The notes under the pieces were generated by a model. The model had not been told where the DNA came from. It searched no databases and was given only the letters and a program-made list of their open reading frames with translations. Shown piece after piece: positions 5,139-63,633 of a stretch of 64,000 nucleotides of DNA; the first letter of the stretch is position 1, and each line of letters begins with the position of its first letter. The position numbers were made by a program, and so were the translations under genes. Source of the stretch: Sialis fuliginosa. Lineage: Eukaryota > Arthropoda > Insecta > Megaloptera > Sialidae. The stretch is from assembly GCA_961205875.1 (NCBI GenBank), contig OY540821.1:8618001-8682000 (forward strand), read 5' to 3'.

Positions 5139-5590
5139 AGGTACTGGCACCAGTCTTGGCCGCTTTAAGACAAAGGTAAGTATACTTTTTTGGGATTGAT
5201 GGTGTTTTTTTTTGTAATTCTTATCAACTCATGTTACTAATAAAAGAAATACGTCTTTATTAAATTAATTTAATTATCAAAATCCGCAAATATAGTTTTT
5301 TAAATTGTAGTTTTTTATTTTGTTTATGTTTTTTCTCCAGTGATGCATTACAAAATGATAAGTACAAAAATACAAAAGTTATAAAATAAAGAATCGTTTA
5401 TACACATTGTAAAACAGATGCTATGATAATATATATAATAATTAATAAATAGATAACATTAATAATTAGTTTAAAAATCCATCATTTAAGCTATTTTAGA
5501 GTTAAGTGTCTATTACTGTCTATAGATTATAATTTAGTAATGGCAGTTATCAATTATCAACATAATATATTTCTAATTAAACAAGTGTAA
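5139..5590 (+). mobile_element. MITE, AGGTACTGGCACC family, right end lost
   Basis: It starts at AGGTACTGGCACCAGTCTTGG directly after a TA (5137-5138). It then follows the family order: GGGATTGATGG, TTTGTAATTCT, AATCCGCAAATATAG, TTTTTTCTCCAG, ACAAAATGATAAGTAC, AATGGCAGTTATCAA. The terminal inverted repeat expected at the right end is missing; similarity fades after about 5590. It is non-coding and non-autonomous. See 37840-38361 for an intact copy. Confidence 0.8.
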
Positions 5591-9241: not shown

Positions 9242-10040
9242 CAGTGAATTCCAAGTTGATTAAGACATAGGAAATTTAACATGGGGACAATTAGAAGTGT
9301 TGTAGTAACCTTTGGTCAAATTTAACGATGTGTGATTGGTGCATTTTGAAATGCCGCCACAAAATTTAATAAAATAGTAATTAGTATTTTGTTTTCGAAT
9401 TTATATCTGCCAAAAAATATTATTATAATTTTATCTAGGATGCTTACTTTAATTTCATTAATGTATTTTAATCTTTATTAAAGTTGAAAACAAAATACTG
9501 TTGATTAATTTAAAATTTATCAGTTAGTTTCGAGGCGGTATTTCAAAATGCACCAATCACACATCGTTAAATTTGACCAAAGGTTACTACAACATTTCTA
9601 ATTGTCCCCATGTTAAATTTCCTATGTCTTAAGCGTCAATTACATTGAGCGAGTTTACAAGCTAACAAGCCAGCTTGTTAGCTTGTTAGCTTGTAAACTT
9701 GCTCAGTGTAATCATGTTCACAAGCTAACAAGCTGCTACAAAAGTTGAAAGCCGGGCTACTTTACTCGCTGGCTTGTAGGCTTGTTAGCTTGTTAGCTTC
9801 TTAGCTTGTAAACTAGCCGGGTGTCATCATAGTAACTAGTTCGCTAGCTACCAGTATCTCGGTGATTCCTGGTTTCAGTGTCTATAAAATGTATTCACAA
9901 CACGTGGTTTACTCGCTAGCTAGTTGGCTACTGAGCGAGTGGAAAGTTTTGTGTGTCATCATCACTATCTTACAAGCTAACAAGCCAGCTTGTAAACTCA
10001 GTTAATGTAATCGACCCTTTAATCAACTTGGAATTCATTG
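9242..10040. mobile_element. TA-flanked foldback MITE with a nested insertion
   Basis: The left end CAGTGAATTCCAAGTTGATT (9242) is matched by the right end AATCAACTTGGAATTCATTG (ends 10040), and both abut TA. The inverted arms extend inward through CATGGGGACAATTAGAA, CGATGTGTGATTGGTGCATT and ATGCCGCC (left 9242-9358; right 9534-9632 plus 10021-10040). They continue, more diverged, almost to the centre at about 9440. TA duplication and a CAGTG tip fit a Tc1/mariner-type non-autonomous element. The right arm is split by the insertion at 9633-10018. There is no coding sequence. Confidence 0.9.
9633..10018. mobile_element. 386-bp element nested at TTAA, GCTTGTTAGCTTG-rich
   Basis: It sits between TTAA (9629-9632) and TTAA (10019-10022). 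Left end GCGTCAATTACATTGAGCGA and right end TAATGTAATCGACCCT form imperfect terminal inverted repeats. The interior is made of many copies, in both orientations, of ACAAGCTAACAAGC / GCTTGTTAGCTTG, with a GC content well above the surroundings. The intact left arm of the host element reads GATTAAGAC, the same target with one TTAA. That supports a TTAA duplication (piggyBac-like), though a 3-bp TTA duplication (Harbinger-like) with one chance base cannot be excluded. Non-coding. Confidence 0.85.
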
Positions 10041-10141
10041 TATAGTTATTCATTTTTTTATGAATACAAAGACAAACTATATGTAGACTTGACTGTTATG
10101 ACTTATGTATATCAATAAAGATTTAAAAATATATAACTCAC

Positions 10142-10321
10142 CCCAAGATCCAGATAAGTGATGTATATTGGGTAGGGAAGAACGATACACAGGGCTAGAA
10201 GCCAAGTGCCCATCGCGCACACGAAGGCCGGTAGACGGGGCCTCATTGGGTCCCTCATCAACCTGTATCGATCGATGGCGATCAGCAGGTAGCTTAACAT
10301 GCTCACATGCAGAGGAATGTC
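10142..10321 (-). CDS. internal exon of a class A (rhodopsin-like) GPCR
   Basis: Exactly 60 codons, phase 0 at both ends. A polypyrimidine acceptor (TTTTATTTTTTCAG) precedes GAC ATT CCT, and the donor GTGAGT follows CTT GGG. The first residues are the end of TM3, with Asp-Arg-Tyr at exon residues 17-19 (context LLIAIDRYR), the G-protein-coupling motif. Residues 20-32 (LMRDPMRPRLPAF) are the second intracellular loop, rich in Arg and Pro. Residues 33-55 are TM4 with the family's conserved Trp at 40 (AMGTWLLAL) and Pro at 49 and 51. Codons are GC-rich compared with the AT-rich flanks, as expected of a constrained exon. The receptor sits in the plasma membrane; the ligand is unknown. TM1-2 exons should lie at higher coordinates and TM5-7 at lower ones; none is recognisable in the window, implying very long introns. 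Confidence 0.9.
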
Positions 10322-11826
10322 CTGAAAAAATAAAAATAAAATACTGTATCAATAGAGTTTACTGAAAATATTATAATAATTACATATTTTTGGACGATGA
10401 AAACGAATTTGATAATAAAAAGCTCGTGGTTTCCTCAAATTATTATTGTCTTCAAAATATATAGAGAAAAAATATTTTTTTATCCAATTTTAATAAATTT
10501 TTTCTCTTCATTTTTCTCTGTCCGAACATTTTTGACCGAGTTATTTGCGATCAAAGTAAAAACCACACTTTTAACTTTAAACAAATGATCGTAAAAATAT
10601 GCCAAAGGCAGATTTGGAAAGCTGAGAGTATTTTCTTTATAACTCGGTCAAAAATGATTGTACAACGATACAACAAAAAACAAATAAAGAGAAAATTTTG
10701 ATCTACACAATTCATTTATTAGATTTAGTTTTAAAAAAAATATCACGGCCCATGGAGGCTCTCAAATTTGTTATAAATTTTCTATTTTTTTTTGCTATTT
10801 TTGACGAGCTTTTTTATTGTCAAATTCGTTTTCAGTGCCCATTAGGCAGTGGAACACCCATCTGGGGTTTTTAAGTGGCTAAACCCCTTCTTCTAATTTG
10901 TCAATATATATAGATTATTTAATTTAACAATTATTAAAATTTAACAGATTTTTTTCTGGGTGCAGCTCTGCCATTAGGTATATATATTAGTCATTATAAG
11001 CCTCATTTAGAACTACATATGTACATATAAACCACTCAGTTATCAATATGGCTAAGTCCAAAATACTATATCTAAAAAAAATCTTATATAATAACTAGAG
11101 ATTGGAAAAATAGTTTTTCAACTATTGCGTACAAATGCATTTATTGTAATTTTTATTACATATCTCCACCGTTTTCAGAAAACTGGTTTGATTGAACACG
11201 ATTTGAAATCAACTATTTGCAACTACCTTTCCAACTATTTTAAAACTATTTGCGAGACTTTTTACTGCTTCGTTTGCACTAATTTTTATCAAATCATAAA
11301 AAAAAACAATTTACCAACTATTTTCCGAAAAAAAAATTCAACTAGTAACTATTTCATTGAAAATAACAACTATTTTTCCAATCTCTAATAATAACCTTCT
11401 GGTAAACCGGGTATGGATTATAGTACATAGGATACATCGCATCAAGTAAACAAATCTAAATTGGGTTCTGTTGGAGTCAACAGGTAACCCAACGTATCCC
11501 AGAAATGCAAACACACATGCAGTGATGATAGAAGCACACGCTGATCTAAAGGTTTTATTTAATTAAACACTTGTTTGCATAGTTTCTCTTAAAATTAATT
11601 TTGGCGTGTGCAGATAGATATAGTGTTTATTAAATGAAATATTACTGAAGACCGTTTTGAGGTTGGTCATTAATTACGTACGCATGTCAGGGGTAAGGGA
11701 GTAGAGCTCAACATGACAATGGTAAAAAAAACTTTTAAAAACCTAAAAAATACTGATAGGTATATTAATAATAATAAATAGAATTTAACAGTTTTTGAAA
11801 TCGGTTTTCTTTATTTTTCTTTTTCT
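10322..11826. repeat. intron DNA with a dispersed repeat copy (about 10480-10810)
   Basis: 10480-10810 shares motifs in order with 18640-18970 (GACCGAGTTATTTGCGA, an ACCACACTTT block, ATAACTCGGTCAA, TTGTACAACG, GGAGGCTCTCAAA). The GAGTTATTTGCGA and ATAACTCGGTCAA parts are inverted to each other, so the repeat is partly palindromic. 11779-11826 carries the terminal part of the AACCGACTTC repeat (TTTTTGAAATCGGTTTTC). Nothing coding is seen. Confidence 0.55.
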
Positions 11827-17668: not shown

Positions 17669-18161
17669 CAGGATGATTAACAACTGGTGTAAAAAAATTT
17701 AACAGTAGATCGAGGATGTAATTCTGAACAAAAAACTTTATGTAAATCTGTGTCCGGAAATCCTTCGTGAGGGAGCTACAGCCCTCCAAAAATTAGTGTT
17801 AAATTAAAATCTAGGGAACCCATTGTGATACAGTTTTACTTGTTTTTTGTTCATTTATCATAAGATCAACCGTTTTCGAGAAATATTTAAAAAAATTAAG
17901 TACTACAGAAATTTACTTATTACGGATGCTTCAAATTATACAAAATAAGTTTAAATTATTGTTCTATAATTAAAAATAAGATAAAAGATAATATAAATAT
18001 ATGGGTTCTCTAGATAAAAAAATAAACACTAATTTTTTGCAAAAAGGCTGTAGCTGCTTCACGAAGAATTTCCGGACACAGGCTTACATAAAGTTTTTTG
18101 TTTAGAATTACATCCTCGATCTACTGTAAATTTTTTTTAACACTAGTTGTAAATCATCCTG
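17669..18161. mobile_element. 493-bp foldback MITE, CAGGATGATT ends, TA flanks
   Basis: Left end CAGGATGATTAACAACTGGT, right end ACTAGTTGTAAATCATCCTG, each next to TA. The inverted arms run about 140 bp: CAGTAGATCGAGGATGTAA against TTACATCCTCGATCTACTG, GTGTCCGGAAATCCTTCG against CGAAGAATTTCCGGACAC, and a CTACAGCC block. TA duplication and a CAGG tip suggest a Tc1/mariner-type non-autonomous element. The arms could form a long hairpin RNA if transcribed. A half copy lies at 38377-38532. Confidence 0.9.
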
Positions 18162-27315: not shown

Positions 27316-28438
27316 CAAGGCTGTTTTTTTTAACCTGAAACTTTCAAATATCTCGCAAAATAGGCACTCTACGGAAAAATATCAATAATCAAAATTTAAT
27401 CATTCCGCGAGAGAAATACATTAGTGTAAAAAATAGCCCCCCACATCCCTCTTTATAGGTTGGGTAGGGGGTAACTTTGAATCTTAAATAGGAACCTCAA
27501 TTTTTTATTGCAGATACGGATTCTACGGTTAAAAGTATGTACGATTTGACTGAAATATTTTGTTTGATTCTTGGTAGATGGCGCTGTAATCGACGAAATT
27601 CAAGTTATAATACAACATAAAAAACCGAAAAAAAAATCGATCGCACCTGATGTATTAGTTTTCAACTGAATTGGTGCATAAGTTAAGCGAATTTACAAAG
27701 CAATTTCATAATTTTTTTCTCGGTTGTTTCCAGCCAACCGGCTTAGTGTGTAGGTTTGTCTATGCCACTACTACAACCTTATTTTTTTTAAACAAATTGG
27801 CGCATCTGATATCTGGTTGTCCCTTTGTTAGTAGAAAAAATCGAAAAAAAATTGAATTTCGTCGATTACATCATCTATCATAAATCAATAAAATATTTCA
27901 GTCAAATCGTACGTACTACAAAAATATTGAGGTTCCTATTTAAGATTCAAAGTTACACCCACCCCAACCTACAAAGAGGGGGGTGGGAGACTATTTTTTT
28001 TTACACTAATGTATTTCCCCCGCGAAATGAATAAATTTTGGTTATTGCCATTTTTTCCGTAGAGTGCCTATTTTTATCGAGATATTTGAAAGTTTCATGT
28101 CCGGTATTATAAAGGAGCTAGCAAATTTGCTAGCTAGTAAGCACTTTCAAATGAGATATCAAACAGTTCTTTTAGAGTTTGTTGAAGACTGACAAGTTTC
28201 GCGCACGCGTTGTAGGTAAATACCAACAGTATTAAAACAGTGGTGATATTAGGAAAATTATTTTGTACGGTGAAAGATGCCAACTGTGTTACAATTAGTT
28301 AAAGTGTCACTGCTCTAAATTCCATAGCTAATCCATAGATACTAGTACAGAATTAATACCCCATTTGAAAGTGCTTGCTAGCTAGCAAATTTTGCTATCT
28401 TCTTTATAATACCGGACTAAGGTTAAAAAAACACCCGG
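27316..28438. mobile_element. foldback MITE, TA flanks, with a nested MITE
   Basis: Left end CAAGGCTGTTTTTTTTAACC after TA (27314-27315); right end GGTTAAAAAAACACCCGG before TA (28439-28440). The arms pair across about 280 bp: CTGAAACTTTCAAATATCTC, AGGCACTCTACGG, GAAATACATTAGTGTAA, the G/C tract, CTTAAATAGGAACCTCAA, and a CGACGAAATTCAA block at 27592-27604 against 27851-27864. The loop, about 27605-27850, has no convincing coding potential. TA duplication suggests Tc1/mariner type. The right arm is interrupted at about 28098-28416. Confidence 0.88.
28098..28416. mobile_element. MITE, TGTCCGGTATTATAAAG family, nested copy
   Basis: Left end TGTCCGGTATTATAAAGGAG then CTAGCAAATTTGCTAGCTAG; right end inverted, CTTCTTTATAATACCGGAC. 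The inverted termini extend about 60 bp, to CACTTTCAAATGAGATAT against a GGTATT-CATTTGAAAGTG arm. The flanks look TA-like (CA on the left, TA on the right), so a decayed TA duplication is possible. Other copies: 44165-44410, 59785-60258 (reversed, interrupted), and tips at 47948-47977 and 60520-60592. Non-coding. Confidence 0.85.
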
Positions 28439-34240: not shown

Positions 34241-35265
34241 ATTTCAAACTTTTTCATTATAAATCATTATAATCATTTTTCTGTTTAAAAAAAAATGTTG
34301 TTTTGTCAATGGGTTTTATATCTTTAATATTTCAACAGTTTAACACGTTTTATTGTTAGATATTACTATTTCTATACATCTATTTAATTGGCAGTTGTAA
34401 TAATAAATGCTTTTATTTTCAAAGATAACTAGATTATTCATATTATTAAAATTATTTTTAAATAAAACCTAAAATTATTGTTTTTTGGTCAATTCATAAA
34501 AGATACAAAAAAAGAATAGGACATAAATTATATAAAATAACGTTCTCTACAAGATAATCATTGAACTGCATGCTTCAACAAAAGCGACCCCCTGTTACCG
34601 CTCGTCTGTTAAAGACTGTAACCAATTAACCATCAAATATAAACAAAATTCTAACTTTATGGAGACATATATTTTATTTAGTTTTATAATTATAAAGTAA
34701 TACCTGAATGCTTTCGGATAATAACTATTCAATATTTAATTAAGACACGATCCAGACCGATAAATATTCTACCGATTACATCTATGGTATTAACCTGAAC
34801 TGAATTCATAGATAATTAAGAGTTTCTCGATTACAGTAAATTAAATATTAGTGAACGCTTTAGACTTAACATACTAGTTGTTTCGTCGTTCACTTCAAGT
34901 ACTGTTAAATTATTCAACAATGTATAGACGAGTATTGCGTACCTACTAGAGTTCAGAAAGGTGCTGGAAGAAATAGAGTATAGGATGTACCAGAATGTTC
35001 CCATGTCTACATTCTGTGTTTCAGGGACGTAGCTTAAAGGGGAGGGTCCTGCTATAATGCGAATTTTGAGGGAATTTTAAAGAATTTTTTTGAAAAATAA
35101 TAAACGGTGGATTGTGTTTTGAAAGTTCTCTGTTATAATTTAATTAAAAAAATTTAATTAAAAATTTTTGAATTGGAAAAGGGTGTTTTTAAATTTTATC
35201 TGCATAATTTTTTATATTATAAAGATGAATTTCAGAGAAAATACTCTTCTATTTATACAAAAATA
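34241..35265. other. AT-rich DNA, no gene seen
   Basis: No coding or repeat signal that I can support. Confidence 0.4.
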
Positions 35266-35816
35266 AGGTACTGACACCAGTCTTGGCCGCTTCAAGAGTT
35301 TCTGTTTCTTGGGATTGATGGGCTTTTTTTGTAATTCTCGTAAACTCAAGTGACTAATAAAACATCTACCTCTTTATTAAATCAATTTAATTACTAAAAT
35401 CCGCAAATATAGTTTGGTTTTTAAATTATAGCTTTTTATTTTGTTTACGTTTTTTCTCTGGCAATGGATAAAGTAATACCAGTAATGGACTCTTGCTAAA
35501 GATTACAAAATGATAAGTACAAAGTCACAAAAGTTATAAAATAAATAATCGTAAAATTGTAAATAATGTAAAGGAGATGCTACAATAATATAATAATTAA
35601 TAAATAGATTGCACTAATATTTAGTTTAAATGTCCACCATTTTGACAGCCATTGGTCAATTGTCATCAAATTAAGCTGTTTTAGAGTTAAGTGTCTAAAG
35701 ATTATGATTGAGTAATGGTAGTTATCAAATATCAACAAATATTTATAATTTTGTACATTTATTTAAACAAGAGTCCAACACTGGGGTATTATTCAAGACT
35801 GGTGCCTCTAGTACTT
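35266..35816 (+). mobile_element. MITE, AGGTACTGGCACC family, 551 bp
   Basis: Left end AGGTACTGACACCAGTCTTG after TA; right end CAAGACTGGTGCCTCTAGTACTT before TA. Internal order as in the family: GGGATTGATGGGC, AATCCGCAAATATAG, TTTTTTCTCTGGCAATGG, GATTACAAAATGATAAGTAC, AATGTCCACCATTTTGACAG, AATGGTAGTTATCAAATATC. Non-coding. The right flank is an ACGTATAAGAAAGT repeat (35825 onward). Confidence 0.9.
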
Positions 35817-36759: not shown

Positions 36760-37180
36760 TGCAAACATAAAAATACTTGATCCCTATTCAGTATTTAATA
36801 ATAAAAAAAGATACCTATTTTTTAAATTAAATTGAAATGTTGAAAATCTTATTCGTATTAGATTCTGAATGATAATCTGTTATCTGTAGATATATGGAAC
36901 TTATATTTCATTCCTTTTAGAAAGCTTAAAAAGCTTTTTACTGCGCTACGCATGTATGTATAAGATTTCAAATCCAAAAACTTCTGCAAAGTTATGTTTA
37001 TTAAGAAAGTATTTCCTGTAGATTTTAAGCAATAAGTTTGTTTGTGATATTATGAAACAAATACAAATTAATAAAATATACATTTCAGAACAAAATATGT
37101 ACTTCATACTAATTCCATAATTAATGATATAATTCAAATCGATAGTTTTAGTAGTAATTTTTCCTGATACTAAGTTTTTA
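36760..37180. other. 3' flank of the candidate exon
   Basis: AATAAA at 36800-36805. Otherwise AT-rich without features; TA at 37179-37180 borders the next element. Confidence 0.4.
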
Positions 37181-37723
37181 GTCCTCGTTCCCGTGTTTAA
37201 ATTTTGAAATAAAAAATACTCCTCTGAAACTTCGTGAGTGGATTCATTTTGGCGTAACCTACAACTTTTTTATCTTCGAAAATTCTGAGAATTGGGGCGT
37301 TTTTGATGTGGCATGCATCAAACATGTTTAGGGCGTAGGTCAAGGCAAAAGTCCCTAGATTTTTGTAGGTCAGTATAACCATAACATTTTACTATTATTT
37401 ATCTAGCAATTGTGCAAAAATCAACCGGTTATTTGTAAATTACATAACATCATGAATTTGACATGTTGAGGGTGTAGGTCTCGCTAAATGCCCCAATATT
37501 TTTGTAGGTCAATATATTTGCATTATAAAATCTTGTAATTCAAGTAAAAAAGAAAGGGTTATTCGTAAATTTCCTATAACTAACGTTAAATTGACATGTT
37601 TGACGCATGCCACATCAAAAATGCCCCAATTCTCAAAATTTTCGAAGATAAAAAAGTTGAACCCACTCTCGATGTTTCAGAGGAGTATTTTCTATTTCAA
37701 AATTTAAAGCCGGGACCGAGAAA
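37181..37723. mobile_element. 543-bp foldback MITE, TA flanks
   Basis: Left arm CTCGTTCCCGTGTTTAAATT, GAAATAAAAAATACTCCTC, AACTTTTTTATCTTCGAAAA, TGGGGCGTTTTTGATGTGGC; the right arm is the same in reverse (GCCACATCAAAAATGCCCC, TTTTCGAAGATAAAAAAGTT, GAGGAGTATTTTCTATTTC, AAAGCCGGGACCGAG). Arms about 145 bp, bordered by TA. The loop repeats ATTTTTGTAGGTCA twice. Non-coding. Confidence 0.85.
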
Positions 37724-37839
37724 TAAATGCTAAAATTATATTTGAAAATGTAAAAACTACAGCCCCCTAACTTCCTCAATACAGACCTGATCTTAATTTA
37801 TTGGTTGTTATTGGAAATCGATGGCACTTTTTAATATTA

Positions 37840-38361
37840 AGGTACTGGCACCAGTCTTGAACAACACCCCAGTGATTAACGTTTTAAAATTAAATGTACT
37901 ACATTAGAAATACTTGTTGATATTTGATTACTGCCATTATTGGGTATTAATCTATATGGATTTATCTGACTTACAGAGTGATTTGATGACAATTGATCAT
38001 TTTGCACGAAGGAGCTGTCTGAAAAGGCCAATCCAGCAGACATAAATGGATGAAGAAGATGAAGAAGAAGATCATTTTGTTTAAAAATAGTGGACAAATA
38101 AACATCGCGGTTACTATCTTATTTTATAACTTTTGTGTCGTAATACTTATCATTTTGTAATCTTCTTAAGTGTCCATCACTGGGTGTTTTACGTTGTTCA
38201 TTATCGGAGAAAAAACATACTTTAGTAATTAAATTGACTTAATAAAGAGGTATAGTTGTTTTATTAGTAACATGTGTTGATGAGAATTACAAAAAAGAAA
38301 CCCATAAATCCCGAAACACAATATACTTTGATTAAAGCGTTCAAGACTGGTGCCAGTACCT
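37840..38361 (-). mobile_element. MITE, AGGTACTGGCACC family, intact 522-bp copy
   Basis: Both termini are perfect for at least 21 bp (AGGTACTGGCACCAGTCTTG and its complement CAAGACTGGTGCCAGTACCT), and both abut TA. It is the best copy for defining the family and is reversed relative to 35266. It carries an extra segment at about 37999-38068 with GAAGATGAAGAAGAAGATC, bounded by a repeated GATCATTTTG-like sequence (37995 and 38069). No ORF survives comparison between copies. Confidence 0.93.
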
Positions 38362-38376
38362 TAATTAATTATCAAA

Positions 38377-40900: not shown

Positions 40901-41796
40901 AAAAAAAAAACCTGACGTGATAGAGCATTTTGGGTAACGAATTCGGATTAATATTAAAAACACAAAAAAACCTCCGGGATGATAACAATAATTTAATTTA
41001 ATCGAATTGTATAATTTAGTTAATATTTTATTAGTACGCCACTGACGAAGCGAGAAGTTTTAGTTAGAGTTAAGAGAGAAATATATAGAGAGCAGTGTTG
41101 TGTGAGTTATCATCGCAGCTTGTTATTTAAATATATCCGCATTGTGATAAAGATTGAGTTTAAATAGAGTTGGAATTTATGCAGATGTATAATATATGAC
41201 AAAACATGTAGATATTATATGTATATCATATACAATATAATAATCATTATTATATCTGAACATTGCGTCGAAATACTTGTATAAGTAGTTCAATCAGATA
41301 ACGTTGGGAATAATGTTTGAATGTATCCACAGGGTGTGGGGGGGTCGCAGAAAAGTTTGCAAGGAGGGGTAGAGCTTGTAAGCAAATAATCAATTCTTTC
41401 ACATGTATAAAATATTAAATTTACTCGATTCTAGAATGGGAGGTTTCCCTGTTTTGCCTCCCTTTTTTGACGCCCTTGATAATTACAAAAGTTAATTTAA
41501 TACATTTTTTATATTGTTTATATAAAATATGAAGTTTTCTTTCCAAACATATATTGATCCTAAATATAAACGTTCACAGACATACAGACATCATAACAAA
41601 ATCAGCCAGAATGGATTCAGGGAAGGTCAAAATGGATATTTCCATTTTAATCTCAGCTTTCCTTATACTTTATATTTTTCAATATATAAGAAAGTTAGAA
41701 AATAATTTTTTCGGACATTGAATAACATATTTTGTTAATAATTAATAATTAATTTATATTTTTAAAATAATCTTCATAAGGTAGATAGAATACTGT
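40901..41796. other. AT-rich DNA, no gene seen
   Basis: 41560-41700 has a relative of the 43160-43430 family (CATCATAACAAAATCAGCCA, GGTCAAAATGGATATTTCC). Otherwise nothing supported. Confidence 0.45.
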
Positions 41797-42238
41797 TTTT
41801 TGGGATTGATGGGCTTATTTTTTATAATCATGAATTCATATTAATTTTTTAAATCAATTTACTTACTAACGTTCACAAATACACTTTTTTTTTAATTATA
41901 GCCACTTATTTATAGTAAAACCAGTTATGGGTACCCAATGATGAACACTTGTTAATGATTACAAAATGATAAGTACTAAGACACAAAAGTTATAAAATAA
42001 AGAATCGTAAAATTGTAAACAATGTAAAGCAGATGCTATAATAATATAATAATTAATAAATAGATTATACTAATAATTAGTTTAAATGTCCACATTTTTG
42101 ACAGTCATTGGCCGATTGTCTACAAATTAAGCTTTTTTACTGTCTATAGATTATGTTTCAGTAATGGCAGTATGTAATCAAATATCAACTAAAATATTTG
42201 TAATTCAGTACATTTAATTTGACAAGTCCAACACGGGT
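41797..42238 (+). mobile_element. MITE, AGGTACTGGCACC family, both tips eroded
   Basis: Recognised by internal order: TTTTGGGATTGATGGGC, AACCAGTTATGGGTACCCA, GATTACAAAATGATAAGTAC, AATGTCCACATTTTTGACAG, AATGGCAGTATGTAATCAAA, TCCAACACGGGTATGATCC. The terminal inverted repeats are unrecognisable. Confidence 0.8.
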
Positions 42239-42929
42239 ATGATCCTAGTTACAAATATATAGAAATAATAATATGAAAGAACCTGAATATGTTATATGTG
42301 TATACCTTTTATATTTCTATATATAACTGTTTTAATATGTAATATGAGTATAGAAATCTCTTTAATCTAAATAATCCTTAATAATCCTTTTAAAGTAAAC
42401 ATAGACATTGTTCCCATATTATATATCCTTACATTTTATTATTACTTATATATGTATATTAGGTACTGTACATGTAATTTTATTTACTTACTCATATTTA
42501 ATAAAGAAATAATCTTTTCATATATAATTAGTTTATTATATTAAATGAATAGACATATTATTTAATTATCAACAATAGAAAATAGATATATTGAACATTT
42601 TACTTTGTATATAGTCCTTAGTCATTTGTATTAAATTTCAGATCAAAGGAATACAATGTACATATAAAATATTGTTTTGTTGTTAATTTTAATGTTATAT
42701 ATTTAAGTAAGTCTATTTTTAAAAGTATGTACTATAAGAACATTAAACATAGTATATTCAATATATGTATCTACCATGGCATGACGAGTAATTTGGTACC
42801 TGTAACATATTTTTATATTTCTTCCCCAGGTCGCTATCAAGGTCCAAAAAATAGGCTAAAAAACAGCCACTCTTTGATTTATGATTTAGCCAGAATTTTT
42901 TTTTTTCATAGGAAATCACCCACAATGTT
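42239..42929. other. AT-rich DNA, no gene seen
   Basis: No supported feature; many TATATA tracts. Confidence 0.4.
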
Positions 42930-46590: not shown

Positions 46591-47101
46591 ACTATTAAAA
46601 AAATTAATTTCAATTTGCAAAAATACAGACATTTTCCATATTGTCCTCTTTTTTTAGCAATATTTCGTTCTCTGAATTGTTTTGACATTTAACACAAACT
46701 GCCTTTGGTTGTATTATTAATTGAAATTTATCTAAACATAACAAAATAATGTTGAAATACGAGGGAATTTAAAAATGTAAATCCGGACGCTGAAAGATTT
46801 GACTTTTGAAAGCAACAGTTTAATAGGAGGGTGTGAGGCTTTTATTAAAACGTAGCATCGACTTATAAAAGTCAATCCTGGTGACGAGCGAGCAATGCAA
46901 AAATAAATATATCCTCGTATATAATAATATTTCAGCAAACGTCAACATTTTATTGCACAAAATTTTTCGTGACTGAATTGTATAATAATAATTTATTGTT
47001 ATTGAAATATGATGGTATAGAAATAGTCATTGATTACTTTGTGGGACAGTTATTAGTGTGCCCCATTGTCTCTAACTTAATTTATAATAAGTATGTATAT
47101 A
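46591..47101. other. AT-rich DNA, no gene seen
   Basis: No supported feature; TA at 47100-47101 is the target of the next MITE. Confidence 0.4.
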
Positions 47102-47592
47102 AGGTACTGGCACCAGTTATGGCCGGTATAAGAACAAGATTTACTGTTTTTGTTCTTTTTTGTAATTCTCCTGAACTCATGTTACTAATACAACAAGTAA
47201 CTCTTTATTTAATCAATTTAATTACCAAAGTCCGCAAATATAGTATGTTTTTTAAATAATAGCCTTTTTATTTTGTTTATGTTTTTCTCCAGTAATGGAT
47301 AAAGTAAAACCAGTAATGAGCACGCAGTGATGGACACTTGCTAATGATTACAAAAAGTACTACGACACAAAAGATATAAAAGAAAGAATCGTCAAATTTG
47401 AAACAATGTAAAGCAGTTGCTATGATAATATAATAATTATACTAATAATTAGTTTAAATGTCCACCATTTTGACACCTATTGGCCGATTATCATCAAATC
47501 ATGCTGTAAGACAGTTAAATGTATATCGATTAATATTCAGAAATGGTAGTAATCAAATATCAACAAATATATCTAATTCAGTACATTTTAAA
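47102..47592 (+). mobile_element. MITE, AGGTACTGGCACC family, right tip lost
   Basis: Left end AGGTACTGGCACCAGTTATG after TA. Internal order AAGTCCGCAAATATAG, TTTTTCTCCAGTAATGG, GATAAAGTAAAACCAGTAAT, AATGTCCACCATTTTGACAC, AATGGTAGTAATCAAATATC, ending at about 47592 without the right inverted repeat. Confidence 0.85.
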
Positions 47593-48548: not shown

Positions 48549-49275
48549 GTATTGAGAGACATGTTTTTTTAAAACTGTTCCATATTTACTGTCAGTTGAA
48601 AAAGGAACATTACGATTTTTTTTTCTTACGGCAAATGTTATTCAGTTTGTGGGGTGAGGGGGTGATTGGGTAGGTAATATCACAGGTTTTTTTGTTTGTG
48701 ATGTGTTTTTTATTGGTAGCTGTTTTTATTAAATGAAACTTTCTTTATCAAAATATTTTATTGTAAAGACGATATTTGTGTGGGTACTTGATACACCAGT
48801 GCATAACACAGTCCATTTATGAGTGCAGACATAAAACACTATCGGTTAATTTCTGGCCGAGATTCTAAGAGAAATAACAAAAAGTTATAATATCTATAGA
48901 GACGAGAGTGCATAATATGTGAACATTTGCAATAAAACTATATGTTCCATGATCCGTAACTGAATGTTGTCATTGTTGTTACGTGACGTACACTTTCAAG
49001 TACACACAACTTTATCGGTACATGTGGTGGATGTTTACGCTTTTGTTATCGCCACAAAGTTTGGTTTCAACTTTGAAATTTATCGGTTTTATTTTTAAAT
49101 GTATATTGTATGCACGAGGCAGATGTCAAGGATACTTTTTCACATTCAGGCCAAATTTTAAACCAAATAAAAAGTATATCGTCACCCGTTAATTTTCCGT
49201 CAGAATCATAGTTATAAATTTTCATATTCACAATACTTTTTACTTTCTTATACCCATGTATATGAAATATACATA
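48549..49275. other. AT-rich DNA with a MITE tip
   Basis: 48789-48817 is the solitary end of the ATGGACTGTGTCAT element. GAGAGACATGTTTTTTTAAA at 48554 has a weak relative at 60361. No gene. Confidence 0.45.
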
Positions 49276-49489
49276 CACTGAGAAAAATATTTCGTGTAGT
49301 CAAAGAATATTTCTTTCAGTCAATTAAATAATTTCATCGAATAGCATCCATAAAATTATTTGATGAACTTAATGAAATAGTTTATTTAAAAGAAAGATTT
49401 AAGAAATTATTAATACAATAAATAATTCATTACATGGAACAAAGTTTTTTTCAAATGGATATCAAATTTATAATTTCAATTAATAATTA

Positions 49490-50070
49490 CATACAACTTA
49501 TGAATCAAATAATTCGAATTATTTTTTCAATGAAATATTTTTTAAATCGAAAAAAATATTTTATGAAACTTAATATTTGTGTTATAACTTGTATGTCAAA
49601 TTTCTTAAAAATTATAAAATATTTGTTCAACTGCAATAAACAATTTATAAATCAAATAAGTCGGATTCTTTTTTCAATAAAATATTTTTTAAATAGAAAA
49701 AAATATTTTATGAAACCTAATATTTGTGTTATAACTTGTATGTCAAATTTCTTAAAAATTATAAAATATTTGTTCAACTGCAATAAACAATTTATGAATC
49801 AAATAAGTCGGATTCTTTTTTCAATGAAATATTTTTTAAATGGAAAAAAATATTTTATGAAACTTAATATCTATGTTATAACTTGTATGTAAAATTTCTT
49901 TAAAATTATAAAATATTTGTTCAACTGAAATAAACAACATATGAATCAAATGAATCGGATTAATTTTTCAATGAAATATTCTTTAAATTAAAAAAAATAT
50001 TTTATGAAAATAAATAACTATGTATTAATTGTTCTGTCAAATTTCATTAAAATTATAAAATAATTGTTTG
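49490..50070 (+). repeat. 147-bp tandem repeat, about 3.9 copies
   Basis: The landmark ATCAAAT occurs at 49504, 49651, 49798 and 49945, exactly 147 bp apart. Each unit has TTTTTTCAATGAAATATTTT, AAAAAATATTTTATGAAAC, TTATAACTTGTATGTCAAAT and AAAATATTTGTTCAACTG. As 147 is divisible by three, one frame (49434-49892) stays open for three units, encoding a Lys/Phe/Ile-rich repeat (NQISRILFS, KKYFMK, NICVITCMSNF). Substitutions do not favour silent sites and the fourth unit has stops, so I do not treat it as a gene. Confidence 0.9.
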
Positions 50071-50340
50071 ATTTAAACAATTATATAATTCATTTATTGA
50101 TTTAGTTCTTTCATTTCATAAAATGTTTAATGGCTCACATTATTCACATAATCTTCTCTAATAAACATTTCTTTATGAGGATTAAAGGAGTTATAGGATA
50201 AATATAGGGGTTCTTGTAAATTAAGAAGTATTTCTTTCAAATAAATAATACTTTATTGACATTAAAAATATAATTTCTTTGGCTAAAGAGCATAGTTAAT
50301 GCATTTCAAGAACTGGTTTATTTAATTTGAATAGATATAT

Positions 50341-52849
50341 ATACTTGTTGCCCTAAAATTACTTGGTGCCGTAAAATTACTTGGTGCCGTAAAATTACTT
50401 GGTGCCGTAAAATTACTTGGTGCAGTGAAATTACTTGGTGCCGTGAAATTACTTGGTGCCGTGAAATTACTTAGTGCCGTAAAATTACTTGGTGCCGTGA
50501 AATTACTTGGTGCCGTAAAATAACTTGGTGCCGTAAAATTACTTGGTGCCGTAAAATTACTTGGTGCCGTGAAATTACTTGGTGCCGTGAAATTACTTGG
50601 TGCCGTGAAATAACTTGGTGCCGTGAAATAACTTGGTGCCGTGAAATTACTTGGTGCCGTGAAATTACTTGGTGCCGTGAAATTACTTGGTGCCGTGAAA
50701 TTACTTGGTGCCGTGAAATTACTTGGTGCCGTGAAATTACTTGGTGCCGTAAAATTACTTGGTGCCGTAAAATTACTTGGTGCCGTGAAATTACTTGGTG
50801 CCGTGAAATTACTTGGTGCCGTAAAATTACTTGGTGCCGTGAAATTACTTGGTGCCGTGAAATTACTTGGTGCCGTAAAATTACTTGGTGCCGTAAAATT
50901 ACTTGGTGCCGTGAAATTACTTGGTGCCGTGAAATTACTTGGTGCCGTAAAATTACTTGGTGCCGTGAAATTACTTGGTGCCGTGAAATTACTTGGTGCC
51001 GTAAAATAACTTGGTGCCCTAAAATTACTTGGTGCCGTGAAATTACTTGGTGCCGTAAAATTACTTGGTGCCGTGAAATTACTTGGTGCCGTGAAATTAC
51101 TTGGTGCCGTAAAATTACTTGGTGCCGTGAAATTACTTGGTGCCGTGAAATTACTTGGTGCCGTGAAATTACTTGGTGCCGTAAAATTACTTGGTGCCGT
51201 AAAATTACTTGGTGCCGTGAAATTACTTGGTGCCGTGAAATTACTTGGTGCCGTAAAATTACTTGGTGCCGTGAAATTACTTGGTGCCGTGAAATTACTT
51301 GGTGCCGTAAAATTACTTGGTGCCGTAAAATTACTTGGTGCCGTGAAATTACTTGGTGCCGTGAAATTACTTGGTGCCGTAAAATTACTTGGTGCCGTGA
51401 AATTATTTGGTGCCGTGAAAATACTTGGTGCCGTAAAATTACTTGGTGCCGTGAAATTACTTGGTGCCGTGAAATTACTTGGTGCCGTAAAATTACTTGG
51501 TGCCGTGAAAATACTTGGTGCCGTGAAATTACTTGGTGCCGTGAAATTACTAGGTGCCGTAAAATTACTTGGTGCCGTAAAATTACTTGGTGCCGTGAAA
51601 TTACTTGGTGCCGTAAAATTACTTGGTGCCGTAAAATTACTTGGTGCCGTGAAATTACTTGGTGCCGTGAAATTACTTGGTGCCGTGAAATTACTTGGTG
51701 CCGTATAATTACTTGGTGCCGTAAAATTACTAGGTGCCGTGAAATTACTTGGTGCCGTGAAATTACTTGGTGCCGTGAAATTACTTGGTGCCGTGAAATT
51801 ACTTGGTGCCGTGAAATTACTTGGTGCCGTAAAATTACTTGGTGCCGTAAAATTACTTGGTGCCCTAAAATTACTTGGTGCCGTGAAATTACTTGGTGCC
51901 GTGAAATTACTTGGTGCCGTAAAATTACTTGGTGCCGTGAAATTACTTGGTGCCGTTAAATTACTTGGTGCCGTGAAATTACTTGGTGCCGTGAAATTAC
52001 TTGGTGCCGTGAAATTACTTGGTGCCGTGAAATTACTTGGTTCCGTGAAATTACTTGGTGCCGTGAAATTACTTGGTGCCGTGAAATTACTTGGTGCCGT
52101 GAAATCACTTGGTGCCGCAAAATTACTTGGTGCCGTGAAATTACTTGGTGCCGTAAAATTACTTGGTGCCCTAAAATTACTTGGTGCCGTAAAATTACTT
52201 GGTGCCGTAAAATTACTAGGTGCCGTAAAATTACTTGGTGCCGTGAAATTACTTGGTGCCGTAAAATTACTTGGTGCCGTGAAATAACTTGGTGCCGTTA
52301 AATTACTTGGTGCCGTAAAATTACTTGGTGCCGTGAAATTACTTGGTGCCGTGAAATTACTTGGTGCCGTGAAATTACTAGGTGCCGTAAAATTACTTGG
52401 TGCCGTGAAATTATTTGGTGCCGTGAAATTACTTGGTGCCGTGAAATTACTTGGTGCCGTGAAATTACTTGGTGCCGTGAAATTACTTGGTGCCGTGAAA
52501 TTACTTGGTGCCGTGAAATTGCTTGGTGCCGTGAAATTACTTGGTGCCGTGAAATTACTTGGTGCCGTGAAATTACTTGGTGCCGTGAAATTACTTGGTG
52601 CCGTGAAATTACTTGGTGCCCTAAAATTATTTGGTGCCCTAAAATTACTTGGTGCCCTAAAATTACTTGGTGCCGTAAAATTACTTGGTGCCGTAAAATT
52701 ACTTGGTGCCCTAAAATTACTTGGTGCCGTAAAATTACTAGGTGCCGTTAAATTACTTGGTGCCGTTAAATTACTTGGTGCCGTAAAATTACTTGGTGCC
52801 GTAAAATTACTTGGTGCCCTAAAATTACTTGGTGCCCTAAAATTACTTG
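50341..52849. repeat. 18-bp minisatellite, about 139 copies
   Basis: Consensus TTACTTGGTGCCGTRAAA, 18 bp, uninterrupted in phase for 2509 bp. Variation is mostly two-state at one base (GTGAAA or GTAAAA), with a third class CCCTAAAA concentrated at the right end (52620-52849) and once at each of 50352 and 51019. Rare changes are ACTAGG, ATTTGG and TAACTTGG. The plus frame reads KLLGAV repeats with several TAA stops and no ATG. The minus frame reads FTAPSN repeats and is stop-free from 52853 down to 50325 but also has no ATG. A seven-unit higher-order pattern is visible in places. I call it a minisatellite, not a gene. Confidence 0.97.
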
Positions 52850-53539
52850 GATACTATATTTCATTGTATCTTATATTTTTTTTTTTTTAAGAAACACATT
52901 TCATCGGAATTATGAAACATTTCATTGGTTTGAATAATTGTCTATTACATATAACGAAATATATTATTGAATTAAATTGTGATTTTTAAAACTCTATTAT
53001 TTCATTTTATTATATCAAAACAATCATTTTTTTGGAATGAATAAAGTTGTATTATATTCAAAGACATGTAAAATCTAACTAATTTTAAGTATTTTAAATG
53101 AATGAAAGGATTATTTCATCGTATAATTTGTATTTTATTACTTTAAAAAAATGCATTTCATTGGATTTATAAAATATTTCATTGGTTTAACAATTTATAA
53201 CTTTAGATTTCTTCAAATAATGATTTTGATTTTTGTTTAAAATATAATGTAATTGATCTGAAAAATTATTTTATAGATAGTTGAGTTGGGTGTTTAATGA
53301 AATGAGAATTCTGAATTGAAATATATGAGATTATTAACTAAAAGAATTAGGCATTGTATCGATTAAAAAATGTATTGGTTCAAAGAAATCAGATTGGATT
53401 AAATTATTTTTTTAACGCAATAATATATTTCTTTTGCTGTATGAAATCACAATTGCTCTGATGAATTTATCATTAATACAATAAAATCAAAATTCTATGA
53501 AATGAAATTCATTGATTCAATGACTTTTTTTTCTCAGTG
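52850..53539. repeat. right subterminal region with a 257-bp duplication
   Basis: ACACATTTCATCGGAATTAT...ACATTTCATTGGTTT (52895) and ATGCATTTCATTGGATTTAT...ATATTTCATTGGTTT (53152) are direct repeats about 257 bp apart. ATTTCATT / AATGAAAT occurs many more times up to the terminus. Dispersed identical motifs next to a short terminal repeat could be transposase-binding sites (inference). Confidence 0.65.
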
Positions 53540-53543
53540 TATA

Positions 53544-54039
53544 ATACAGTCTTGGATATGATCCTAGTAATGGCTATTTTTTAATTAAATGTACAGAATT
53601 ATAAATGTTAGTTGATATTTGATTACTACCATTTCTGAATATTAATCTACATACATTTAACTGTCTTACTGCGTGATTTGATGGCAATCGACCGATGGGT
53701 GTCAAAATGGTGGATATTTAAACTAATTATTAGTATGATTTATTTATTAATTATTATACTATCATAGCAACTGCATTACATTGTTTTAAAGACGATTCTT
53801 TCTTTTATTGCTCATTACTGGTTTTACTTTATTTATTACTGGAGAAAAAAATAAACAAAATATAAGGTTATAATTTAAAAAATAAACTATATTTGCGGAA
53901 TTTGGTATTTAAATTGATTAAATAAAGAGTTATTTGTTTTATTATTAACATGAATTCATGAGAATTACAAAAAAGAAGCCCGTCAGTCGCAAAACAGTAA
54001 ACCTTGCTCTTATAGCGGCCATAACTGGTGCCAGTACCT
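53544..54039 (-). mobile_element. MITE, AGGTACTGGCACC family, reversed
   Basis: Right end CATAACTGGTGCCAGTACCT before TA (54040-54041). Left end is degraded: TAATACAGTCTTGGATATG lacks about ten bases of the terminus, and is only a few bases from the end of the 4.26-kb element. Internal order reversed: TTGATTACTACCATTTCTG, CAAAATGGTGGATATTTAAA, TTACTGGAGAAAAAA, ATATTTGCGGAATTTGG. Confidence 0.85.
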
Positions 54040-54560
54040 TAGTATAAGTAAGTATCGTAAAGCCGATTTTTTTCGAACTTCGGATTTTGATGGAATTATC
54101 CATTTTGACCTTCCCTGAATCTATTCTGACTATTTTCGCCATGATGTCTGTCTGTCTGTCGGTCTGCAGACGCTGTAACTCAATTACGACAAATTGTAGA
54201 AGGGTGAAATTTTATATTTAAGATTAATTTTTGTCTGGGAAGAAAATCTCATATTTTTGAAAACGATCTTTCAACCAAATACGGATGTTCACTGATAATT
54301 TTTTTTAATTTTTCAAATTACCTTGAAACAGTGTGAATTAGAGAAAAATGGCCAAGTTAAAAATTGTAGGTAATATTATTATCTATAATTTATGAGCCAT
54401 TTATTTTATTCGTTTGAAATATTTTTCAATAAAATTAGAAACACGTACACTGTTCACTGTCAGTGTTACGTATAAGAAAGTCCCGTGGTTTCCACGGCAG
54501 ATATTTTTATACTTTTAACGTACAAGAAATTCATGTATTCCAAATATTTTATTTTACGAG
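54040..54560 (-). repeat. ACGTATAAGAAAGT dispersed repeat, rearranged copy
   Basis: 54060-54300 is the reverse complement of 43160-43430 (TTTGATGGAATTATCCATTT, CCATGATGTCTGTCTGTCTG, GAAGGGTGAAATTTTATATT). 54445-54520 carries ACACGTACACTGTTCACTG and TTACGTATAAGAAAGTCCC in the same orientation as at 42990, so the two blocks are inverted relative to each other here. Confidence 0.6.
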
Positions 54561-55253
54561 GTTTGTTGATTCATAAAATCAAGCAACAATATTTAACATT
54601 TTCTTATCATTTTCTTCATTCACAAAATGTGACAAAGCTGTATATATAAATAGTAACTTTGACGAAATCTACAAAATAACATAGTACATAGTAACAAATT
54701 CGTAAGCTTAACTGGGATGGGGGGGTGTATAAGAAGCTTAACAAACTTCTCTCAATTTTGTATACATCGTTCTATAAGATTAATTCTCGGTATTGAAATA
54801 ACTAAATGTATAATATGTGCATTTCTCAAGTCTTAATTTTGACGTGTGTTTGTATGAAGCTATTCAGTGCTAGATCGTATTGTATTTAATGTCGTACAAA
54901 TGGTAAATTAAATCTTATTTTATCCAAGATACTAATGTTTACATGGGTTATTTACATACATATATTTGATACTCTTTGGTAGATATGCGGAAACAAATAA
55001 TAAACAGAATCTAATAAATACATATGTATTAATTAACTCAAGTGTTTTTTTCACAAGTGTACTTAAGTACACTTTTGTAAAAAGTACTTGTTTTAATTTA
55101 AATAATTTTTATTGGCAATGCACTCGTACTGTATTCTACCTACTTAAATACAATTTTAGGCAAAATTAAATATACCTACTTGTTCTTAAGTATATTTTTT
55201 AATTGTAACTCAATTTTTGTTGATATTTTTATTATAAATTGAATTTAATTATA
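54561..55253. other. AT-rich DNA, no gene seen
   Basis: Short G run at 54715-54725. A 67-codon AT-rich frame at 54966 has no coding support. Confidence 0.4.
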
Positions 55254-55770
55254 AGGTACTGCCATCAGTCTTGAAAAATACCCCAATGTTGAACATTTTT
55301 GAGTTAAATGTACTGAGTTAAAAATATTTTTTGATATTTAATTACTGCCATTACTGGATACATTTAACTATTTAGTAGCGTTATTTGATGAAAATTGACC
55401 ATTTTGTTTAAAAACAGTGGACAAATAATTATCGCGGTACGGCATACTATCAATAAAAGTTAAAAAAATGTAAATGCTTTACATAAATAAATCTTATGAC
55501 TTTTTATTTTATAACGTTTGTATCTTTGTAATCTTTAGAAAGGGTTCATTACTGGGTTTACTTTGTCCATTACTGGAGAAAAAACATATAAAATAGAAAA
55601 CTATTTAAAAAAAAACTATTTTCGAATTTTGATAACTAACTTTATTTAATAAAGCGGTTCTTGTTTTATAAGTAACATGAGTTCATGAGAATTAAAAAAA
55701 AGTAGCCCATCAATCCAAAAAAAAAACAAAGACTTTGCTCTTAAAGCGTACAAGACTGGTGCGAGTACTT
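55254..55770 (-). mobile_element. MITE, AGGTACTGGCACC family, 517 bp
   Basis: Left end AGGTACTGCCATCAGTCTTG after TA; right end CAAGACTGGTGCGAGTACTT before TA. Same orientation as 37840: ATTACTGCCATTACTGG, CATTACTGGAGAAAAAACAT, ATCAATCC-reversed GGGATTGAT, with slightly decayed tips. Confidence 0.9.
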
Positions 55771-56932
55771 TAGTAGAATCACGATATAATTAACGCCATT
55801 TTAACAGACAAAAATCATTGGTGCATTTTTCAAAATGTTTGTTATTTAAATACGAAAAAAATTGAAAATTTCGGATATACAATACAACTTTTCAGGTATA
55901 GTTTTAATTAAAAAGAATTGATCAAGTACGGAATATAGGGAAATCAATGATATTTTTGATGCATGCAAATATTTGGCGTGCTGTTAATATTTACAAAAAA
56001 ATACATTTTTTTCATTCAATTTGATACTTTTTCCAATAGTTTTAAATTTCTTTTTCTTTGGTATTAAATATCAAAATCGGTTGTAGAGTTTTTTTTTTGA
56101 GAATTAGATAAATCTGAAATATAAAAATTCATAATTATTGCTTAGAGAAAATCTCATTAAATTTAAATTAAGTTACAAAATTTAAATTATGTTTAATCCA
56201 ATATCTTGAAAAGCGAAACGGCGTATTTTTTATTAGAGGACATTCAAGAAAATCAATATACAGAATAGATTTTAAAAATGTCCAAACTTTAGCAATTCAA
56301 ACTTTTTCTCGTTTTCAATAAATATCAAAGTTACCAAATAAGGCTTGTTTTTTTAAATAAGTTTTTTTTTTTTATCAGGTGATCATTCAAGTAACCTCAT
56401 TCTTCAAATTTATGTACGTCGTATTCAAAACGAATTTATAATTCATATTTCAATTTAAAAAATACATATTTTTTATTTATTTGTTTTTTAATTAAAAGAA
56501 AACTCACATTTATTTGTTTTTGTATAGAATTTCTTATTGTGCATTTCTGGAAATCTAAATATATATTATCTTCTTTACATATTATTATCATAAATAATCC
56601 ACTTTTTATTAGAGAAGATGAAAACAATTTTTAGTTTTTTTTTTTTTAACATTAATATTTAAAAAAAGTCGAAATTTAATTATCATTTTTTGTACGGCTA
56701 AATAAATAAATATACATAATTGAGTATTGTAAAGCCATAGAAATTTAGTAGAATTCAAGATGTTGATGGAAATATCATTATACCTTTCCCTGTATTTTCA
56801 TTGCGTCTGTATGTATATAATTTTCGTCTGGGGAAAAGATCTTACAACCGGAAATAGATGTTTATACTTGTGAAAGTTGTAGAGAATATTATTATCTATA
56901 TGATGAATTTTAAGGAAGTAATTTTTAAATAA
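55771..56932. other. AT-rich DNA, no gene seen
   Basis: 56750-56830 is a weak relative of the 43160 family (GATGTTGATGGAAATATC). Nothing else supported. Confidence 0.4.
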
Positions 56933-63382: not shown

Positions 63383-63633
63383 AGGTACTGGATCGTACTC
63401 CAGTGTTGGATTCTTGTTTAATTAAACGTACTAAATTAGCTATTACTGAATCATATAATAGACACTTAACAGCTTAATTTGATGACAATCAGTCAATGGG
63501 TGTTAAAATGGTGGACATTTAAATTAATTATTAGTGTAATCTTTTTATTAATTATTATATTATCATAGCATCTGTTTTAAATTGTTTACAATTTTACGAT
63601 TCTTTATTTTATAACTTGTGTGTCTTTGTATAT
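63383..63633 (-). mobile_element. MITE, AGGTACTGGCACC family, left half only
   Basis: AGGTACTGGATCGTACTCCA after TA, then AGACACTTAACAGCTTAATT, GATGACAATCAGTCAATGGG, AAAATGGTGGACATTTAAAT, TTACGATTCTTTATTTTATA, ending at about 63633 (GTGTGTCTTTGTA). The rest of the element is absent. Confidence 0.8.

Follow-up and report, generated by a model that had tools for sequence, protein, structure and literature searches.

A window of 64,000 nucleotides from Sialis fuliginosa (C13:8618001-8682000 in a genome of 392 Mb and 20 contigs, G000) contained, at positions 49276-53539, an element with short inverted ends and a long minisatellite of 18-bp units in its interior. This element is very probably non-autonomous, having arisen by internal deletion from a cut-and-paste DNA transposon of 15-17 kb that has CACTG...CAGTG ends, makes 2-bp target-site duplications with a preference for TA, and encodes a CMC/CACTA-like transposase candidate. 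The ends and duplications, the empty sites of one insertion, the long relatives with an intact frame, and arrays that were both carried and reshuffled were observed directly.

Copies, ends and target sites

The preliminary description of this stretch had proposed a genome search for other loci with the same ends, and such a search returned further copies that shared both the ends and the interior, confirming that the element is real. There were at least 41 matches to the left arm and at least 82 to the right arm, many of which represented individual tandem units or fragments of one copy that overlapped each other. Twenty left ends that retained their start were counted. All 20 began with CACTGAGAAAAATATT, preceded by TA in 17 cases, TG in two and CA in one. 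Ten were from copies of the window type, defined as a forward 18-bp array after a shared segment (one of the ten, at C6:13.40 Mb, was broken), five were from other short copies, four were from long copies, and one (L006) had a different and apparently truncated interior. Location and strand allowed a right end to be assigned to 17 left ends, 13 from short copies and four from long copies, and the paired short copies spanned approximately 2.3 to 7.5 kb as calculated from coordinates. The left ends that remained unpaired were L006, L010 (C11, where the array stops abruptly) and L029 (C6:13.40 Mb, with distant right-arm pieces only), and the unpaired right ends were L047 and L049. Among 19 right-end loci, 17 finished plainly in TCAGTG, L041 was irregular and L049 was mutated.

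Matching 2-bp duplications flanked all 17 paired copies: TA in 14, TG in two and CA in one. For the C1 copy, which has the irregular right end L041, the outermost CAGTG was taken as the end. Since three sites were not TA, the two flanking bases belong to a duplication rather than to the ends themselves. Empty sites were found for the one insertion of the 17 that was covered by this comparison. When the flanks of the C10 long copy were joined with one TG (160 bp), there were five uninterrupted end-to-end matches elsewhere in the genome (100, 100, 99, 98, and 94%), while at C10 itself the joined query gave two half matches, split by the element.

The broken copy lay at C6:13400000-13416600 (L027-L029). 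Its left arm was interrupted within the 147-bp array, and it contained inverted duplicate pieces, arrays in both directions, and a right arm in two distant pieces.

Long copies and a transposase candidate

Four copies that shared both ends were much longer than the others (14.8-16.9 kb, Table 1). A frame of 816 amino acids (aa) was open in all four, with 99.8-99.96% nucleotide identity to L061, the interior of the C10 long copy and the reference for this comparison, which suggests that the long-copy element was recently active. Shorter frames were found on the same strand in L061. The putative motifs in the 816-aa frame, whose acidic residues were picked by eye, were DD at 299-300, D at 393, C(2)C at 413-416, H(3-4)H at 614-619 and E at 639, in that order; residues 393-639 contained no further C..C or H(3-4)H. 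An excerpt of PMC12730594 describes this arrangement for the CMCT group. On this basis the frame is regarded as a candidate transposase bearing CMC-like motifs rather than as an established member of CACTA.

Weak Pfam matches below the cut-off were found in the frame (zinc-finger-type at residues 6-33, FOXP), Transposase_21 was not matched, and a search of solved structures with the candidate returned only a zinc finger (E 0.6). Two frames of the long copy had no match in PHROGs, and in viral_contigs four stretches fit a short peptide pattern of the candidate, none of them a relative.

The motif ATTTCAT[TC] was clustered toward both ends of the C10 long copy, with six of seven occurrences in the first kb on one strand and 24 of 26 in the last 2 kb on the other. 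In En/Spm elements, subterminal repeats are present near both ends in opposite orientation. The opposed clusters in this one long copy are as expected of putative subterminal binding sites.

Further frames were located behind the candidate at L061:3329-5901 on the minus strand, perhaps one gene with a SAM-like part as judged by eye. These had no Pfam match above cut-off and a weak match to Thioredoxin_4 (E 0.019) in 3329-3730. The match at L061:5094-5402 was also weak and chance-like (E 0.02).

Transport and turnover of the 18-bp array

The 18-bp unit was not found in the C10 long-copy sequence examined, which covered all but bases 3693301-3694809 within the 257-bp array, nor in the 1.5 kb closest to the right ends L044-L048. 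Because the unit was absent from the long copy examined and the frame there was intact, the window element was read as the internally deleted, non-autonomous derivative.

Comparison of the window-type copies showed that the edges of the array were conserved. Eight of the nine listed left edges started with the same three unit types (L003 has a one-base variant of the first unit, coded alike, and the window copy differs in the second unit), and seven of eight right edges finished in the same two units, C7 being different. The preliminary description had also called for minisatellite length to be compared across loci. The five complete window-type arrays contained 139 (window), 19, 158, 158, and 148 units, in each case an exact multiple of 18 bp in length, with 6 to 22 distinct units per array, and the order of units among them was near shuffled. 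The terminal 247 bp on the left and 330 bp on the right of these five copies were 99-100% identical (rounded). Conserved edges and scrambled interiors between near-identical ends indicate that the array arrived together with the element and has since been remade at a faster pace than point changes accumulated in the ends. In other words, the minisatellite travels with the element and is then remodelled quickly. The preliminary description had offered spread of the minisatellite by a mobile element and expansion after insertion as alternatives; both seem to hold, the array being carried and then remodelled.

Arrays of the other short copies were more complex. Four of these five copies carried a reversed array followed by a forward array, and the fifth (L017/L039) a forward array only. 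Part of the right arm recurred inside the array in C2 and C12:12.1 Mb, and the shared segment recurred inside the array in C8.

To a large extent the array sequence was confined to the element. A 28-mer from the array had 1063 matches in the genome (reversed control, 0), of which 759, a count taken without the middles of the longest arrays, were within the loci of 13 copies; the remainder were not individually placed. A rarer array dimer, whose matches were listed in full, had 42, of which 41 were in 13 known copies and one was outside, at C14:11469975-11470005, which may be a free array or an element remnant. This dimer misses two of the 15 known arrays (C7 and C11), so free arrays lacking it could escape. 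The element is a possible seed of satellite DNA. The proposal of one mobile unit spreading a minisatellite was upheld by the matching duplications in 17 of 17 paired copies together with the conserved edges and the 41 dimer matches in copies. The array pattern was not found in viral_contigs or genome_contigs.

The short direct repeat TACTTG was present at both array edges. A model for the birth of tandem arrays by slippage expects short direct repeats, according to a passage of PMC6947457, and birth of this array by slippage between such repeats fits the TACTTG edges.

The long-copy interior contained 13 bp at L007:2734-2746, TATATATACTTGT, that matched the left edge of the window-type array in inverted orientation. 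This match (E 0.01 in a small search) may be a breakpoint mark or chance, and it was too weak to be taken as a long-copy seed of the 18-bp unit.

Proposed history and its weaknesses

The parent would have been a 15-17 kb element with a transposase. Its coding middle would then have been lost, with the 18-bp array arising or being captured in that place, first as an inverted pair, and a further deletion would have left the single forward array of the window type. Movement of the short copies would depend on the long-copy protein, which would bind the ends common to both and the subterminal motif repeats. Slippage or unequal exchange would lengthen and shorten the array by complete 18-bp units, changes that may be boosted by gap repair following excision. 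The left ends L015, L016, L017, and L030 were 98% identical to long copies, 97-98% to most window-type copies and 96% to the window copy, and most window-type left ends were 96% identical to long copies (window copy, 94%), which agrees with the proposed order of deletion.

Tentatively, these copies could represent a CMC-group or CMC-adjacent 15-17 kb lineage of their own, recently active and marked by CACTG ends, 2-bp TA/TG/CA duplications, a transposase of no assigned group and additional frames. Its non-autonomous form would have exchanged its genes for a minisatellite that is rebuilt upon or shortly after every transposition, for example by template switching during gap repair, and the transposon would both disperse and mutate a variable number tandem repeat (VNTR), inverted pairs included. 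The probability of this extended scenario is judged to be low. If true, the transposon would be both a dispersal and a mutation engine for a VNTR. The origin and dispersal of minisatellites are usually inferred from old, decayed copies. This one genome combines long copies with intact frames, deletion derivatives, empty sites, and near-identical copies differing mainly in the array, so that array birth, dispersal and turnover can be compared side by side and remodelling driven by transposition is directly testable.

Several points weigh against the interpretation of the window element as a derivative of a CMC/CACTA-like transposon with a fast-changing array. For four of the ten pairs of complete arrays, unit order was more similar than in any of 30 shuffles, indicating that turnover is fast but incomplete. 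The 816-aa frame had no Pfam match above the curated cut-off and none to a transposase, and its core had no Pfam match at E values up to 10; the candidate transposase is identified by partly eye-picked motifs, by location between the ends, and by conservation. Mobility was read from sequence comparison and not from witnessed transposition, and the order from long copy to inverted pair to forward-only array follows parsimony. L018, an inverted-pair copy, does not fit the deletion history cleanly: its left end was 95-96% identical to long copies, compared with 98-99% for most copies of the window type and 97% for the window copy. Finally, the DNA searches rank the best candidates only, making the copy counts lower bounds.

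Alternative explanations

That this is a stationary minisatellite in AT-rich DNA, with inverted ends produced by chance and no mobile unit, can be practically dismissed, even though the window copy by itself gives this explanation some room. A TA-flanked 12-bp inverted pair (at least four G/C, 300-6000 bp apart) occurred in 6 of 60 shuffles of approximately 59 kb of the window, which makes the 12-bp ends only moderately unlikely and one copy alone suggestive only. Of 1000 shuffles, none reached the observed similarity between the arms at positions 0-150, 4 did so at 12-150 and 17 at 40-300, and just inside the ends the similarity was at chance level, reached in 211 of 1000 shuffles for positions 12-40 and 146 for 15-40; the arms inside the 12-bp ends add little inverted similarity. 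A stationary locus is contradicted by the presence on many contigs of copies having the two ends and the interior, by matching duplications in 17 of 17, and by empty sites; the second copies and empty sites rule out chance ends. A miniature inverted-repeat transposable element (MITE) of Tc1/mariner type (Stowaway-like), with an expanded array, would account for the TA on both sides of 14 of the 17 paired copies, but is highly improbable and was rejected on the TG/TG duplications of two copies and the CA/CA duplication of one. Furthermore, the long-copy protein had a CMC-like motif order and no Pfam transposase match of any kind, no Tc1-type transposase was recognized between the shared ends in the one long copy read, and the window copy is 4264 bp long. 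A strict-TA MITE was not supported, given these three insertions at TG or CA, the 4.26-kb length and the relationship to a 15-17 kb element.

Two further explanations concern the array rather than the element. It could have been captured ready-made from a genomic repeat locus, so that the element merely dispersed it. This possibility is somewhat doubtful, yet it agrees with the failure to find an 18-bp seed in the long copy examined, with the single dimer match outside known copies (C14:11469975), and with a capture model for miDNA4 outlined in a passage of PMC12628747. The concentration of matches in copies (41 of 42 for the dimer, 759 of 1063 for the 28-mer in the loci of 13 copies) and the TACTTG repeat at both edges, as expected by the slippage-birth model in the passage of PMC6947457, argue the other way. 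Assembly error is an improbable cause of the differences in array length. Arrays of at least 2.5 kb of near-identical units are hard to assemble and their lengths are known from the assembly alone, but unit orders differ throughout, with 6 to 22 distinct units in each array, no complete array of the five contains a partial 18-bp unit, and the 19-unit C9 copy is short and easily assembled.

Comparison with known systems

The element resembles the CMC group as described in the excerpt of PMC12730594, and this comparison was by description rather than alignment. The CACTG...CAGTG termini have the CA...TG form, the duplication of 2 bp in 17 of 17 paired copies is within the 2-5 bp of CMC/CMCT elements, and C(2)C and H(3-4)H lie between the eye-picked, putative second D and E in the long-copy protein. 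Differences are the preference for TA with occasional TG or CA and the absence of a Pfam transposase match. Within the CACTA superfamily, the animal TRC elements such as SmTRC1 share 2-bp duplications and animal hosts according to passages of PMC1636069 and PMC4298943. Their ends begin with CCC, SmTRC1 has a 54-bp inverted repeat, and Transposase_21 is present (passage of PMC1636069); neither such ends nor Transposase_21, the mark of CACTA proper and TRC, was found here. Subterminal repeats in opposed orientation, in one long copy examined, are En/Spm-like. The strict TA of Tc1/mariner and Stowaway elements was not observed.

Tandem repeats within transposons are known. DNA transposons carrying or seeding them include miDNA4, Xstir, and Tetris, and the ENSAT1 satellite of Arabidopsis has an En/Spm-like source (passages of PMC9659126, PMC6947457, and PMC12628747). 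The preliminary suggestion of a new element class was therefore not supported. The miDNA4 of Xenopus and other repeat-bearing MITEs in the same passages are likewise non-autonomous with an internal tandem array of variable length; miDNA4 is described there as a Tc1/mariner MITE, whereas the element here is a derivative of a CMC-like 15-17 kb transposon, with arrays reaching kilobases and sometimes forming inverted pairs. A MITE is about 400 bp in a review passage of PMC9659126 and, in the preliminary description, mostly under 1 kb, compared with the 4264 bp of the window copy and the approximately 2.3 to 7.5 kb of the short copies. The Tetris foldback of Drosophila virilis (passage of PMC4079207) also lacks a transposase and has internal tandem repeats whose number varies among near-identical copies, as the 19 to 158 units do among the five arrays here. 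In Tetris, repeats of about 220 bp lie in long inverted repeats and duplications are 8-10 bp, in contrast to a central minisatellite between 12-bp ends. A foldback element was ruled out, as similarity beyond the 12-bp ends was weak and at positions 12-40 insignificant. A Porphyromonas gingivalis MITE likewise has a minisatellite inside an inverted-repeat element, in a bacterium (PMC4596501). No CACTA/EnSpm element bearing a minisatellite or satellite was found in the titles and abstract openings listed for open-licence papers, and CACTGAGAAAAA had one occurrence in the literature text available, in a dolphin gene-expression study by its title. New here is the combination of a minisatellite reaching kilobases, within a deletion derivative that is CMC-like, and long relatives with intact frames; transposon-borne repeats as such are known.

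Structure of the window copy

The ends of the window copy form a perfect 12-bp inverted repeat with TA outside both, and no further exact 12-mer was present in the window. The preliminary description had given 13 bp while itself writing 12 letters. Its flanking TA dinucleotides, 147-bp array, and 18-bp minisatellite of 139 copies were all recovered (Table 1), as were its numerous motifs, with 11 ATTTCAT in the right arm and seven in the left compared with at most three in any equal-length stretch elsewhere in the window. Its 257-bp duplication was absent: two copies of approximately 85 bp, 79% identical, recur at a spacing of 257 in the right arm. The 257-bp unit is genuinely arrayed in tandem in the long relatives, and the pair is probably a relic of that unit. 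In an alignment of 20 left ends, the window copy was without 18 bp of the left arm present in the other 19. The shared segment was 98-100% identical among the copies having it, except L018 (94%), and L030 was without it. Unit 1 of the 18-bp array was TACTTGTTGCCCTAAAAT and the final two full units were of the CCCTAAAAT type. The right arm had 19 near full-length matches across the genome, window copy included.

The window copy itself contained no transposase and its long open frames were repeat-derived, so the earlier statement that there is none stood for this copy and not for the long relatives, which hold the open 816-aa candidate. An 843-aa minus-strand frame crosses the 18-bp array. Since 18 bp is six codons and, by inspection, no single change in the consensus unit gives a stop, the open frame says nothing, and the array was rejected as a gene.

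Table 1. Parts of the window copy (window positions) and long copies elsewhere in the genome
Feature	Position	Strand	Remarks
Left target-site duplication, TA	49274..49275		Agrees with right TA
Left terminal inverted repeat, CACTGAGAAAAA	49276..49287	+	Sole exact copy on + strand within window
Left terminal arm	49276..49492	+	BLAST against L001-L030; alignment of 20 left ends
147-bp tandem array, 3.9 units	49493..50068	+	More units in long copies
Segment common to array-bearing and long copies	50069..50341	+	BLAST
18-bp minisatellite, 139.4 units	50342..52850	+	Consensus TACTTGGTGCCGTGAAAT
Right arm with ATTTCATT subterminal motifs	52851..53539	+	Genome matches, motif counts
Repeat of ~85 bp, copy 1	52857..52939	+	79% identity to copy 2
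Repeat of ~85 bp, copy 2	53112..53195	+	~257 spacing from copy 1
Right terminal inverted repeat	53528..53539	-	Exact 12-mer
Right target-site duplication, TA	53540..53541		Agrees with left TA
Long copy	C10:3681025-3696994		Both ends shared; long copies 14.8-16.9 kb
Long copy	C6:2863353-2880258		Both ends shared
Long copy	C4:18102630-18117821		Both ends shared
Long copy	C5:31883659-31898493		Both ends shared

Surroundings in the window

The window was repeat-rich and AT-rich, with few long frames; together with the receptor-like frame described below, these features suggest an animal, tentatively an arthropod. No tRNA or tmRNA was found in it by ARAGORN with bacterial settings, and Rfam gave no match at gathering scores. 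A 184-bp tandem array at 568-2500 (10.5 copies, 98% matches) looked like a separate satellite. A dispersed repeat family was present in at least eight places (5131-5578, 35264-35801, 37838-38366, 41793-42243, 47096-47588, 53547-54046, 55250-55775, and 63439-63630); the copy at 37838 had inverted ends TAAGGTACTGGCACC, and one copy began 8 bp from the right end of the element. Inverted repeats like those of hairpin MITEs, with TA at or near their ends, were located at 9261-9631, 11096-11387, 17706-18123, 27333-28100, and 37177-37727. A frame at 10115-10348 on the minus strand resembled an exon of a 7-transmembrane receptor (Pfam 7tm_1, E 7.8e-07, 29.3 bits against a cut-off of 30.5), and its best matches among solved structures were peptide receptors.

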